Assembly: GCA_029780075.1 (NCBI GenBank)
Contig: JAKOZI010000180.1
Coordinates: forward strand, 1-45,507
DNA from: Pseudomonadota bacterium
GTDB taxonomy: Bacteria > Pseudomonadota > Gammaproteobacteria > Burkholderiales > Rhodocyclaceae
DNA: 45,507 nt
Reading direction: 5' to 3'
Shown here: one piece after another, positions 38,950 through 43,818 of the stretch
How the letters are laid out: each line of letters starts with the position of its first letter
Position numbering within the stretch: the stretch's first letter is position 1
Program-made: the position numbers and the translations under genes
The notes under the pieces: generated by a model
Told to the model about the DNA's origin: nothing
What the model saw: only the letters and a program-made list of their open reading frames with translations
Databases searched by the model: none

Positions 38950-41478
38950 ATGGCTTTGCTGAACAAATTTGCCGGCAGGACGACGTCTCCGTCCAGAGCG
39001 CCGAGTCCGCTGCCGGAGAAGATCGCGGTTCTGCTGCGGGAATCGCGCTGGCTGGTCCTGATCGTCGTCGCGAGTTTTCTCGCGCTCTCCCTGTGGGGTT
39101 ACCATCGGGCCGACCCTGGCTGGTCGCACGCCGTGCATGCCACGACGCTGCATAACCCGGCTGGTCGCAGCGGTGCCTGGCTGGCTGATTTGATGCTGTA
39201 CGTCTTCGGCGTCTCGGCGTGGTGGTGGATCGCCCTGCTGCTCGCCTTCGTCTGGTGGGGCTACCGCCGACTCGACGGTCAGCGACCAACCGACCGCCGC
39301 CCGCTGTACATTGCTCTGGCTGGATTCGTGGTGCTGATCGTCGCCAGCAGTGGCCTCGAAACCCTGCGTTTCTACACCCTCAAGGCGACGCTGCCGGTCG
39401 GTCCGGGAGGCGTGATGGGCCTGGAGTTGCGCGATTTCGCGGTGCGCTACCTGGGCTATACCGGCGCGACGCTGACCCTGTTGGCGATGCTGAGCCTTGG
39501 CTGGAGCATCTTCTCCGGCATGTCGTGGATCAGCGCTGCGGAACGCGCCGGAACACTCCTTGAAGAGGCGGTTGTCGGCGTTGGCAAGCTGTTCGAGCGC
39601 TGGCAGGACCGGCGCATCGGCCGCGAAGTCGCGCGCGAACGCAAAGCGGTGGTCGATGGCGAGAAGAAGCGGGGCGAGGCGCATGAACCCTCCCTGACCG
39701 AGAAACCCGAGACGGTCACCCCTCCACCACTGAAGCAAGGGATCAAGCGCAGCGACGCTCGGGAACCGACGCTCGCCGAAGGGCCGCAGCCGTCCCTCGC
39801 CGACAGGCCCGAGCCGGCAGCCACCTCGACACCGCTGCCGCCGCAAGACGAGCAGCCTGACGCAGCCCTGCAGCCAGAGCCTCTCCCGAGTGAGAAAGCA
39901 GGTGCGATCACGACACCACCACTTGCGCTGAAAGTTGACAAGCGCATCGCCCGCGAGCGACAACCTGCGCTCTTTCCCGACGCCGTCGAGGGTGCCCTGC
40001 TGCCGCCCCTGCATCTGCTCGAACCGGCGCCGCCGCAGAGTGACCGCATCCGCCCGGAAACCCTTGAATACACCTCGCGTCTGATCGAGCGCAAACTCGC
40101 GGATTTTGGCGTGCAGGTCACGGTGACCGCGGCCTTCCCGGGGCCGGTCATCACCCGTTATGAATTTGAACCGGCGGTGGGCGTCAAGGGGGCGCAGATC
40201 CTCAACCTGGCCAAGGATCTGGCGCGCTCGCTGTCGCTGACCTCGGTACGCGTCGTCGAAACGGTGCCGGGCAAGTCGTCGATGGCGATCGAACTCCCGA
40301 ACCCGAAGCGTCAAGTGGTGCGCTTGCTGGAAATCATCTCCAGCAAGGAATACCATGAACTGAACTCGCCGCTGACGATCACCCTCGGCAAGGACATCAG
40401 CGGCCAGCCGCTGGTGGTCGATCTGGCCAAGATGCCGCACCTGCTGGTAGCTGGCACAACCGGCTCCGGCAAGTCGGTCGGTATCAACGCGATGATCCTG
40501 TCGCTGCTCTACAAGGCCGAGCCCGACCAGGTACGGCTGATCCTGGTCGACCCCAAAATGCTCGAACTGTCGATCTACGAGGGCATCCCGCACCTGCTCG
40601 CACCGGTGGTGGTCGACATGAAGCACGCCGCCAATGCGCTCAACTGGTGCGTCGCCGAGATGGAAAAGCGTTACAAGCTGATGTCCGCGATGGGGGTGCG
40701 CAATCTGTCCGGACTCAACCAGCGCATCCGTGACGCTGAGAAGAGCGGCGAGAAAATCGCCAACCCGGTATCGCTGACCCCGGACGCTCCCGAACCGCTG
40801 TCGATACTACCGTACATCGTCGTCGTGATCGACGAACTCGCCGACCTGATGATGGTTTCCGGCAAGACCGTCGAGCAACTGATTGCCCGCCTGGCCCAAA
40901 AGGCCCGCGCCTCGGGCATTCACCTGATTCTCGCCACACAGCGACCGTCGGTCGACGTCATCACCGGCCTGATCAAGGCTAACATCCCGACGCGTATCTC
41001 ATTCCAGGTGTCGTCAAAAATCGACTCGCGCACCATCCTCGACCAAATGGGTGCCGAGACGCTGCTTGGCCAGGGCGACATGCTCTATCTGGCACCGGGA
41101 ACGGGCTATCCGACCCGCGTCCATGGTGCTTTTGTCGCCGATGACGAAGTGCATCGAGTCGTCGACTTCCTGAAGAAAACGGGTACCCCGGATTACGTCG
41201 ATGGCGTGCTCAAGGGCGGCGTCGGAGATGAGGACGGCGAAGGTGGCGGCGAGAAGGCTGGCCTGGACACCGATGGGGAGGCCGATCCGGTCTATGACCA
41301 GGCGGTCGAAGTGGTGTTGAAGAATCGACGCGCGTCGATCTCACTGGTGCAGCGGCACCTGCGCATCGGCTACAACCGCTCGGCCCGCCTGATCGAGGCG
41401 ATGGAGAAGGCTGGACTGGTTTCCGCCATGGACGCTCGTGGCGGGCGCGAAGTCCTGGCCCGCAAGGAGGAAGAATGA
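38950..41478 (+). CDS. ftsK: DNA translocase FtsK
   Basis: This 842-residue septal DNA pump resolves and segregates chromosome ends at division. It has four membrane segments in the first 190 residues and a Pro/Glu-rich linker (about 215-345) with loosely repeated EPSLTEKPE / EPTLAEGPQ / PSLADRPEP units. Then come the alpha/beta motor with Walker [11 protein letters not shown] (from residue 502) and Walker [40 protein letters not shown], and a C-terminal gamma winged helix ([36 protein letters not shown]) that reads KOPS sites. It overlaps lolA by ATGA. Slightly longer than many FtsK proteins of related bacteria, owing to the linker. Confidence 0.96.
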
Positions 41479-42089
41479 TCCGGCGCGGCCTCTTCGCAGC
41501 CGCCTGCCTGCTGGCTGCGCAGGTGGCAGGCGCGGGGGCGATCGACAAGTTGCACCAGTTCCTGGAATCGACCCGGACGGTGCGTGCCGACTTCACGCAG
41601 ACCGTTATCGCCAGGAACGGGCGCCAGGCGCAGACCTCGAGCGGGGTCATGATGTTCTCGCGCCCCGGCAAGTTTCGCTGGCAGATCGAGAAGCCCTACA
41701 GCCAGTTGCTGCTGGGGGACGGTGAAAAAGTCTGGATCCACGACCCGGATTTGCGCCAGGTCACGGTCAGGAAAGCCGGTACCGCGCTCGGCGGAACGCC
41801 GGCCTCGCTGCTCGCCGGCGATACCCAGATCGAAAAGAGCTTCAGCCTGCGCGAAGCCGGCGAACGCGATGGCATGGAATGGATCGAAGCGATTCCCAAA
41901 GTCCAGGACAGCGGTTTCGAGAAGGTTCGTCTCGGTTTTGCCGGCAACGATCTGCGCGCGATGGAACTGTTCGACAGCCTGGGCCAGATCACCTCGCTGG
42001 CATTCTCGCACCTCGAGCGCAATCCCAGGCTGGCGCCTTCGTTGTTCCGCTTCGCCACGCCCGCCAATACCGATGTGATTGGCGAGTAA
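41475..42089 (+). CDS. lolA: Outer-membrane lipoprotein carrier LolA
   Basis: This is a 204-residue periplasmic chaperone that ferries lipoproteins from LolCDE to LolB. A short signal peptide ([22 protein letters not shown], cleaved near residue 20-22) precedes the mature part: [55 protein letters not shown] and ASLLAG. These are the family's conserved segments. The ATGA overlap with ftsK couples translation; ftsK-lolA is a conserved pair. In many relatives rarA follows, but here an IS element begins 30 bases after the stop. Confidence 0.95.
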
Positions 42090-42119: not shown

Positions 42120-42140
42120 CGCTTACCACCCATCACTTTT
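42120..42140 (+). repeat. Left terminal inverted repeat of the IS4-family element
   Basis: The outer 11 bases CGCTTACCACC match the right end exactly; differences occur at positions 12, 17 and 18 of the 21-base arm. Confidence 0.85.
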
Positions 42141-42180
42141 AATGTAATCTCTCATTACTACGAGGCAACACATTGATACG

Positions 42181-43239
42181 ATGGGAAAGACAGATAAGTT
42201 AGCGGACGAGGTACGGTTTGGTCTGGAAGAGGCCCTCCCTGGGATGCGCAAGACGATCCTGAAAAAGCTACCGCTAGCGGTGGCGGCGATGATTCAGGCG
42301 CGCACACCGAACACGATGGAGTTGTCGGCGCTGCTGGCGCTCGACACGGAACGTGCGGACATGCGCGAGCAGTGGTTGCGGCGACTGCTGACGAACCGGC
42401 TGATCCGCAGTGCGGGGGTGCTTGAACCCTTCGCTCGCCGAGCGCTGGAGCAAGCGGCGGCGGGAGGGCAGGCGATACTGCTGTCGATGGACCAAACCGA
42501 CTTGGGCGATCGCTTCGCGGTATTGATGCTCAGCGTGCGTTGCGGCGACCGATCGCTGCCGCTGGTGTGGCGGATCGAGGAAGGCGAGGCCAATATTGGC
42601 TTTGCCGGGCAGCAGGTGCTGCTGGAGGAGGTACGGGCGTGGTTGCCCGAAGGCGCGGCGGTGATGCTGCTGGCGGATCGATTCTACCCCTCCGTGACCT
42701 TGTTCGAGTGGCTCCTCGCGACGGGCTGGCAGTATCGGCTGCGCCTGAAGGGGAACCTGTTGGTTGATGTCGGTTGCGCTGGCATCGGGACCACCGGCGA
42801 GTTGGCCGCCGGCGTGCGTGAGCGCTATGAGGCGAATGCGCGTCTGTTCGAAGCGGGCATCCCAATGGCGATTGGCGTGCTGCATGAGCCTGGACACCCC
42901 GAGCCCTGGATCATCGCGATGGATTGTCCGCCCAACCGGGCCGCGGTCCGAGACTACGGCGCGCGCTGGGCCATCGAACCGATGTTCTCGGACTTCAAGA
43001 GCCGCGGCTTCCGCCTGGAGGATACGAAACTCGAAGCGCCCAAGCGTCTCGATTGCCTTATCCTGATCATGGCGCTGGCTATGTACTGGTGTGTTCAGGC
43101 CGGGCAGGAGGACGCCCGCTGCAATCCCACCGCCACTGAAAAAAAGCCCGTGAGCAGACCGACCCCAACCATTGGAGTGTCCGCAAAGCCTATCGCAGTG
43201 CCCTTTCCTGGTTCAAACGCGGCCTCCGCCTGCTCTTGA
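42181..43239 (+). CDS. IS4-family DDE transposase (zero frame product; tail in -1 frame)
   Basis: The zero-frame protein has 352 residues. Catalytic Asp104 is in LLSMDQTDLG, Asp166 in LLADRFYP and Glu266 in the YREK motif YGARWAIEPMFSDFK (Tyr259, Arg262, Glu266, Lys273 in the exact Y-2-R-3-E-6-K spacing). The zero frame then goes PVSRPTPTIGVS... for 30 low-complexity residues to a stop at 43239. The expected C-terminal helix (NHWSVRKAYRSALSWFKRG) is instead in the -1 frame and runs to a TGA at 43293-43295. The two frames meet at A_AAA_AAG (43140-43146). Either programmed -1 frameshifting makes a 371-residue protein, or one A has been lost from the A-run. The catalytic core is intact. Confidence 0.88.
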   Translation: MGKTDKLADEVRFGLEEALPGMRKTILKKLPLAVAAMIQARTPNTMELSALLALDTERADMREQWLRRLLTNRLIRSAGVLEPFARRALEQAAAGGQAILLSMDQTDLGDRFAVLMLSVRCGDRSLPLVWRIEEGEANIGFAGQQVLLEEVRAWLPEGAAVMLLADRFYPSVTLFEWLLATGWQYRLRLKGNLLVDVGCAGIGTTGELAAGVRERYEANARLFEAGIPMAIGVLHEPGHPEPWIIAMDCPPNRAAVRDYGARWAIEPMFSDFKSRGFRLEDTKLEAPKRLDCLILIMALAMYWCVQAGQEDARCNPTATEKKPVSRPTPTIGVSAKPIAVPFPGSNAASACS

Positions 43240-43295
43240 GACGCGCTGCCAGCGCACTGCCTCTCCCCAAGTTCTTCCAGGGGGCCGAAACATGA
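43140..43295 (+). other. -1 frame transposase tail after A_AAA_AAG slippery heptamer
   Basis: The heptamer A_AAA_AAG (43140-43146) is in the zero frame required for -1 slippage (GAA AAA AAG). A slip there continues GCC CGT GAG CAG in the -1 frame, which stays open for 49 residues with the conserved IS4 tail YRSALSWFKRGLRLLLRR and stops at 43295. A -1 frame stop (TGA 43137-43139) immediately precedes the heptamer, so the tail can only be reached by shifting at or after this point. AGGAGG at 43106-43111 is 28 bases upstream, farther than the SD-like stimulators known for dnaX. Confidence 0.6.
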
Positions 43296-43308
43296 TAGGT
43301 GGTAAGCG
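43288..43308 (-). repeat. Right terminal inverted repeat of the IS4-family element
   Basis: The reverse complement starts CGCTTACCACCTATCA, matching the left end. The -1 frame stop codon of the transposase (43293-43295) lies inside this repeat, a compact arrangement that favours the -1 frame end as the true C-terminus. Confidence 0.85.
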
Positions 43309-43392: not shown

Positions 43393-43818
43393 ATGGCTGA
43401 AGAATTGCTCCACAAGCATTTCACTCCCTACGTACCGGAACCGGGCGAGGAGTTCATGAACAGCGATCAGCTGGCTCATTTTCGCGGCATCCTCGAAGCC
43501 CTCAAGCGGCAGTTGATGGAAGACATCGAGCGCACGGTGCACACGATGAAGGATGAAGCGACGGTTTTTGCTGATCCCATTGATCGTGCGAGCCAGGAAA
43601 CCGACATCGCCATCGAGTTGCGCAACCGTGACCGCGAGCGCAAGCTGATCAAGAAGATCGAGGAAACCATCGCGCGTATCGACAGTGGCGACTATGGCTA
43701 CTGTGCGGCCTGCGGCGTCGAGATCGGCATCAAGCGTCTGGAAGCGCGGCCGACGGCGACGCTGTGCATCGACTGCAAGACGCTGGAAGAGGTGCGCGAG
43801 AAGCAGATCGCCAAATAG
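43393..43818 (+). CDS. dksA: RNA polymerase-binding transcription factor DksA
   Basis: This 141-residue protein binds the RNA polymerase secondary channel and, with ppGpp, drives the stringent response. The coiled-coil tip has FADPIDRASQETD with Asp61, Asp64 and Ala66, the DxxDxA motif needed for function. The C4 zinc finger uses Cys104, Cys107, Cys125 and Cys128 (YCAACGVEIGIKRL...LCIDC). The length is normal. It stands between the IS4-family element and a terminator, and converges on pnp. Confidence 0.95.
   Translation: MAEELLHKHFTPYVPEPGEEFMNSDQLAHFRGILEALKRQLMEDIERTVHTMKDEATVFADPIDRASQETDIAIELRNRDRERKLIKKIEETIARIDSGDYGYCAACGVEIGIKRLEARPTATLCIDCKTLEEVREKQIAK

Follow-up and report, generated by a model that had tools for sequence, protein, structure and literature searches.

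The insertion sequence and its two frames

The window, by which we mean the whole stretch of 45,507 nucleotides analysed here, is part of a draft genome of 346 contigs. It carries an insertion sequence (IS) between genes at 41475-42089 and 43393-43818, which we take from their translations to be lolA-like and dksA-like, respectively. The right boundary of the element is set by alignments with copies at other sites, which end at 43306. Its right inverted repeat is 14 bp long (TGATAGGTGGTAAG, 43293-43306), and the left end (CTTACCACCCATCA) departs from it by one mismatch. A target duplication was searched for around the window copy, and none was found. The features of the element are listed in Table 1.

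Table 1. Features of the IS4-like element in the window.
Feature	Position	Strand	Basis and remarks
IS4-like insertion sequence, 1185 bp	42122..43306	+	Ends CTTACCACC...GGTGGTAAG; inverted repeats
Zero-frame transposase ORF, 352 aa	42181..43239	+	D104, D166, E266 and Y-R-E-K signature; ends in a 30-residue tail without detectable constraint
-1 frame TGA directly 5' of the heptamer, opening the -1 frame	43137..43139	+	Sequence reading
Slippery heptamer A_AAA_AAG in zero-frame phase	43140..43146	+	Sequence reading; in-phase scan
-1 frame C-terminal extension, 49 codons and TGA	43146..43295	+	Homology, selection, continuous homologue P0001, two predicted helices

The zero frame reads GAA AAA AAG at 43138-43146, with a run of seven As (A7) at 43139-43145 followed by a G. 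A_AAA_AAG thus lies in the phase used for -1 frameshifting, with a -1 frame stop immediately before it, both as the preliminary description had stated. The -1 frame continues from 43146 as AREQTDPNHWSVRKAYRSALSWFKRGLR...KFFQGAET up to its stop, TGA 43293-43295. Since the 14-bp right repeat begins, on its inner side, with this TGA, the earlier statement that a -1 slip leads to a stop inside the right inverted repeat is correct. The slip would join 322 zero-frame residues to 49 residues of the -1 frame, and the 371-residue product predicted earlier has exactly the length of P0001, a relative that is naturally continuous.

The string AAAAAAG occurs eight times in the window, against 2.2 occurrences expected from dinucleotide shuffles. 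The heptamer by itself is common here, and what goes beyond chance is the open, conserved -1 frame downstream and the recurrence of the arrangement in relatives.

Relationship to the IS4 family

The window ORF matches Pfam PF01609 (DDE_Tnp_1) with 39.3 bits, above the cut-off of 23. Residues D104, D166, Y259, R262, E266 and K273 (numbering of P0001) are invariant in all six aligned rows, including the window, and form the Y-(2)-R-(3)-E-(6)-K signature. The closest NCBIfam family is IS4_2, with a cut-off of 152; the window ORF scores 136.5 bits, P0001 137.8 and L049 128.3, and the in-frame relatives L083 (156.2) and L100 (154.0) exceed the cut-off. Along the 340 positions of this profile, the continuous proteins P0001, L049, L083 and L100 match up to positions 308-320, whereas the match of zero-frame ORFs stops earlier, at 284 in the window and 281 in L079. 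The -1 frame therefore carries the ordinary C-terminus of the family.

The structural model of P0001 (pLDDT 86.0, pTM 0.87) places two helices behind the site, at residues 332-339 and 344-357, with a confidence of 62 for residues 331-340 and 82-94 for residues 341-360. Its best match among solved structures is the Tn5 transposase 4dm0 (E 9.6e-11, TM 0.59 by query). The conserved IS4 C-terminus that the preliminary description placed in the -1 frame is borne out by homology, selection, the ends of the IS4_2 matches and the helices of this model.

A review of the IS4 family gives a target duplication of 7-13 bp, depending on the subgroup, and names the absence of a frameshift as a hallmark of the family (PMC2266710); the earlier remark that IS4 elements are described without frameshifts is thus found in print. 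The present element resembles the family, which includes the Tn5/IS50, IS10, IS4Sa and IS231 subgroups, in its DDE transposase with Y-R-E-K, in the 10-bp target duplications of its relatives and in having the Tn5 fold as best PDB match. It would count as a member by its catalytic signature, by the fold of P0001 and by the target duplications of relatives, it departs from the family in the no-frameshift hallmark, and the IS4_2 scores of the group lie on both sides of the cut-off. The 12 in-frame rows among the 49 compared at the site (described below) conform to that hallmark; the 25 -1 rows, the window element among them, and the 12 +1 rows do not. IS231V and IS231W may be IS4-family elements with split frames, which would be a precedent if true.

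Copies in the same genome and genus

The genus offers a range of states at the site. In the own genome, A7 is present in all three copies that keep this end (C304, C138 and C139), and no in-frame copy was found among these three in the draft assembly; a further fragment, C120, is without the site. Matches to the element occur in eight of the 28 genomes of the genus, the own genome included. L008 in genome G019, 84% identical, has A7. Two matches in G018 cover the site, one with A7 (L009) and one in which the run is interrupted by a T (L021), and a 76% identical fragment in G012 (L010) has no A run. The sister genome G005, a single contig, has five copies, 90% identical, in which the frame is continuous by way of an interrupted run. 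All five have intact 371-residue frames, and four showed 1188-bp ends, the same ends as in the window element, flanked by 10-bp target duplications. Another G005 element, L030 (79% identical), has the same interrupted run and a stop shortly downstream, and L049, L012 and L018 are further continuous elements of the genus, more distant. Among Candidatus Accumulibacter records, the proteins of L096 and L108 are 82% and 91% identical to that of the window.

In G018, the right end of the element is found on about ten contigs, often at contig edges, and the matches begin at nearly one point about 140 bp from that end. This pattern is probably an assembler effect that masks many copies.

Frame relations in distant relatives

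Relatives were sought in plasmids, in GTDB contigs (38 loci), in viral contigs and in genomes of the family, the class, the phylum and other groups; the viral contigs yielded none. The frame relation was scored where the catalytic and C-terminal parts lie close together, with identical stretches counted once, and the census covers loci with a nearby C-terminal match, which sets aside L052, L053, L081 and other loci with only the N-terminal part. The resulting 49 site rows come from 48 loci and divide into 25 in the -1 state, 12 in frame and 12 +1. At 80%, they fall into 28 clusters, with a majority state of -1 in 16, in frame in six and +1 in six, a split that is approximate because three tied clusters (L082/L098, L084/L102 and L192/L207) were assigned by listing order.

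In 13 of the 28 clusters, one copy or more combines an in-phase A_AAA_AAN with a conserved C-terminus that lies in the -1 frame, a number that takes in one decaying lineage (IS-b, see below). These are the cluster of the window, L072, L079/L080 from Methylomagnum plasmids, L082 from a Methylobacterium indicum plasmid, L084 and L091 from two Thiorhodospira lineages, L087 (Contendobacter), L093, L095/L187, L097 (a Solibacter MAG), L110 (an Acidobacteriota MAG), L189 and L154. Three other -1 clusters have mixed A/G runs instead of pure A runs: L181 (A5G4), L188 (A6G5) and L202 (A7G5). The share of -1 rows is 11/11 for A_AAA_AAG, 4/6 for A_AAA_AAC and 5/14 for A_AAA_AAA, an association that is partly forced, since the length of the run determines the frame.

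The preliminary description had proposed a count of the A run in other copies, in which a conserved A7 would favour programmed shifting, and had held that copies with eight As and one continuous frame would speak against it. The count supports the former: A7 in 3/3 copies of the own genome, in L008 and in one of two G018 copies, together with the 13 clusters. Part of the latter is seen, as the five G005 copies are indeed continuous at 90% identity, but through an interrupted run and not through eight As. A purely local deletion of one A is very unlikely, given A7 in all three own copies and the heptamer with a -1 C-terminus in 13/28 clusters.

With IS-b set aside, ten -1 rows in eight clusters have an otherwise complete N-terminal part; L188 is among them, yet it has no in-phase A heptamer. 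Ten of the 11 complete frameshifted rows are -1, again without IS-b, the exception being L098, which is +1. Outside IS-b, the +1 rows other than L098 (12 +1 rows in total) are damaged or truncated by a contig edge.

Two side observations concern individual loci. L192 and L207, two AT-rich relatives in G1266, have about ten and nine As, respectively, and different frame states, which would fit transcriptional slippage. L111 from Candidatus Achromatium palustre is full length with its C-terminus in frame, and its site has a TAA codon where the A run would be.

A tree of 35 rows was built from the catalytic part, with distant outgroup rows and seven rows filling less than half of the columns. One clade, whose named members are mostly alphaproteobacterial, has ten -1 rows, two +1, one in frame and one not classed. 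A second clade, which contains the window, has six -1, seven in frame and four +1. At least ten changes of frame state are needed, and on this tree the state is labile.

Selection on the -1 frame

Substitutions in the C-terminal part were compared with random placement of the same substitutions in 17 pairs, which share sequences and are not independent. Where both copies are -1 (14 pairs), the -1 frame protein is spared in 11 (p <= 0.0005), and the remaining three have only 2 to 6 substitutions. In the pair L095-L187, for example, four of 42 -1 frame residues differ, compared with 15.3 expected. For the zero-frame tail, 30 residues that the preliminary description had called meaningless, none of these 14 pairs gave significant evidence of constraint (p >= 0.08). 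The same test on mixed pairs gave p < 0.0005 for L001-L007 and L082-L098 and p 0.21 for L088-L091. L001 and L008, which are 16% apart, share A7 with selection on the -1 frame. By this test, the -1 frame was being translated while the copies diverged, a result that by itself is compatible with an in-frame ancestor.

Mobility of the -1 copies

Thiorhodospira sibirica carries two -1 copies, L084 and L085, with 100% identity along 1190 bp, each between its own 10-bp target duplication. A third locus, L104, is internally deleted, with both remaining parts 100% identical to L084 and the same site; it is a MITE-like derivative left by recent activity. The site could be read in five copies or fragments of this lineage (IS-a), namely L084, L085, L104, L102 and L280; all have A7 and none is in frame, L102 being degenerate and reading +1 and L280 reading -1 by eye against L084. 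Target duplications were found at seven of 24 loci, with 10 bp at L014, L082, L084, L085, L187 and L100 and an apparent 12-bp repeat at L079, so that the -1 elements L079, L082 and L187 also have them.

A second multi-copy lineage in Thiorhodospira sibirica, IS-b (L088-L091 and L224-L238), is 72-74% identical to IS-a (L084). Its runs are A7, A8 and A9, with all three frame relations. In the four copies read at the N-terminus (L088-L091), residues 1-19 are in another frame, and these copies were excluded from the counts of complete N-terminal parts for that reason. IS-b may be either dead and mobilised in trans or equipped with a second recoding site.

How the full-length transposase could be made

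The comparisons support the frameshift interpretation of the preliminary description, as far as sequence data reach. In our judgement, programmed -1 ribosomal frameshifting at A_AAA_AAG is the probable, though by no means assured, source of the full transposase. Most ribosomes would keep the zero frame and produce the 352-residue protein, which has the catalytic triad and a meaningless tail. A minority would slip by -1, with lysine tRNAs on AAA AAG, and continue in the -1 frame, so that the conserved C-terminal helices are part of their 371-residue product. We infer that the slippage is ribosomal and of this low rate and that transposase activity lies with the 371-residue form; the short, tail-less form would presumably be inactive or inhibitory. 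Two features of ribosomal frameshifting are present: a motif of the form X_XXY_YYZ in zero-frame phase and a downstream -1 frame under purifying selection.

A stimulatory stem-loop or Shine-Dalgarno sequence is frequent in -1 frameshifting but not required. No convincing stem-loop was found downstream of the window site, either in 80 nt (z -0.04) or in 40 nt (z -1.6, where 16 of 200 shuffles did as well), and the rows of relatives that were scanned gave no consistent signal. No Shine-Dalgarno-like site was found within 24 nt upstream, and Rfam gave no match. The tRNA scan, covering all 40 tRNA places, found both tRNA-Lys(TTT) and tRNA-Lys(CTT) in the host, so AAG should be less shifty than in E. 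coli, which weakens the case for ribosomal slippage. Of 83 species having both lysine tRNAs, 46 are reported to carry such motifs in their IS elements (PMC4066793). Further points against a ribosomal mechanism are the in-frame relative at 90% identity, the ten state changes, the T in one G018 run and the lack of a target duplication around the window copy.

The main rival is transcriptional slippage, in which RNA polymerase would add an A on A7 in some transcripts, leading to the same 371-residue protein. In DDE_Tnp_1 transposases, a mixture of -1 and +1 directions is taken to indicate transcriptional realignment (PMC3711429), a rule by which the 12 +1 rows suggest either transcriptional slippage or decay. 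The relatives also have runs of A8, A9 and about ten As (L192) in the -1, 0 and +1 states, the stimulators of ribosomal shifting were not found, and seven As are enough for transcriptional slippage in the IS3-family element IS1447 (PMC6211511). However, 16 of the 23 -1 rows scanned for stimulators have exactly A7, the minimum for the heptamer, and only L098 of the 12 +1 rows has a complete N-terminal part (IS-b aside). One survey of transcriptional slippage was restricted to runs of nine, with the remark that in some bacteria slippage may also occur on shorter ones (PMC1088944). Taken together, we regard transcriptional slippage as unlikely, if a serious contender.

Decay of an in-frame element is a somewhat more doubtful explanation. 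The A run would be a hot spot for replication indels, and the -1 copies would be recent pseudogenes of an in-frame master, mobilised in trans. In-frame relatives do exist at 90% identity (G005) and form the majority in six of the 28 clusters, and one G018 copy has a T inside the run. In IS-b, the run drifts from A7 to A9 alongside the N-terminal frame break in four copies, that is, in an element already broken, which supports decay for such copies. Against decay of the window element stands the A7 in all three copies of its own genome, where no in-frame copy was found, although draft genomes can hide one. L001 and L008 have A7 in common across their divergence, with the -1 frame selected, and the ten complete -1 rows in eight clusters also have an open C-terminal part. 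The identical -1 copies at two Thiorhodospira sites, in a lineage with no in-frame copy or fragment among five, are difficult to reconcile with it as well.

Phase variation, in which the DNA run would switch between A7 (off) and an in-frame length (on), is highly improbable: run length does differ among lineages, but it is constant within the intact ones (3/3 copies in the window genome, 2/2 in L079/L080 and 3/3 near-identical IS-a copies). An assembly or base-calling error in the homopolymer, conceivable for a draft of 346 contigs, is very unlikely to the point of being negligible, as A7 is found in three separate own copies and in independent records, including the complete plasmids NZ_AP019787.1 and NZ_AP019785.1.

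Programmed frameshifting might apply to more than the window element. A broader proposal, on which we are evenly divided, is that an IS4-like subgroup in three proteobacterial classes and Acidobacteriota relies on a conserved programmed -1 frameshift behind the catalytic core, with one gene giving a catalytic form without the tail, which probably acts as an inhibitor, and small amounts of the active, full-length form. The arrangement would have been gained and lost repeatedly, with the frame fused in some branches.

Comparison with known recoding systems

The closest parallels are IS1 and members of IS3 such as IS911 and IS150, in which an in-phase A_AAA_AAG/A/C precedes an overlapping -1 frame and leads to a trans-frame transposase (PMC4066793, PMC5009743); motifs of the A_AAA_AAN type are among the commonest in these families (PMC4066793). 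In IS1 and IS3, the shift generally brings together the catalytic ORF and a regulator ORF that lies upstream of it, whereas the zero-frame product of the window element already has the whole DDE triad and the shift alters only the end of the protein, its last 49 residues. The data support a candidate case of IS1/IS3-type recoding in an IS4-like transposase, behind the catalytic core, that reaches well beyond one element.

GeneTack clusters of DDE_Tnp_1 transposases (Antonov et al. 2013) share the Pfam domain and an A-rich site with the window element, and comprise three -1 and three +1 clusters (PMC3711429). Recoding within this Pfam domain is therefore already known, and some of these clusters could belong to the present IS4-like subgroup. 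In the IS427 group of IS5, too, the gene for the DDE transposase consists of two overlapping ORFs and has a frameshift motif (PMC3281130); there, the complete DDE is described only for the predicted fusion, whereas the short product of the window element already has it. A recoding review names IS1, IS3, IS5 and IS630 as users of frameshifting (PMC5009743), and predicted or demonstrated frameshifts are also described in IS982, IS5 and other elements (PMC3281130, PMC7335449, PMC3196728). Among the matches listed in the open-licence literature, none described programmed frameshifting for a member of IS4.

The absence of a frameshift, as a published hallmark of IS4, fails for many members of the subgroup. 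If the frameshift reading is true, programmed recoding would extend to the Tn5-like lineage, with an unusual placement after the DDE core. The fused and frameshifted sister elements, 10% apart, are a natural pair for the role of recoding in transposition. Two Methylomagnum records annotate the transposase only up to the zero-frame tail, and its real C-terminus has thus been missed.
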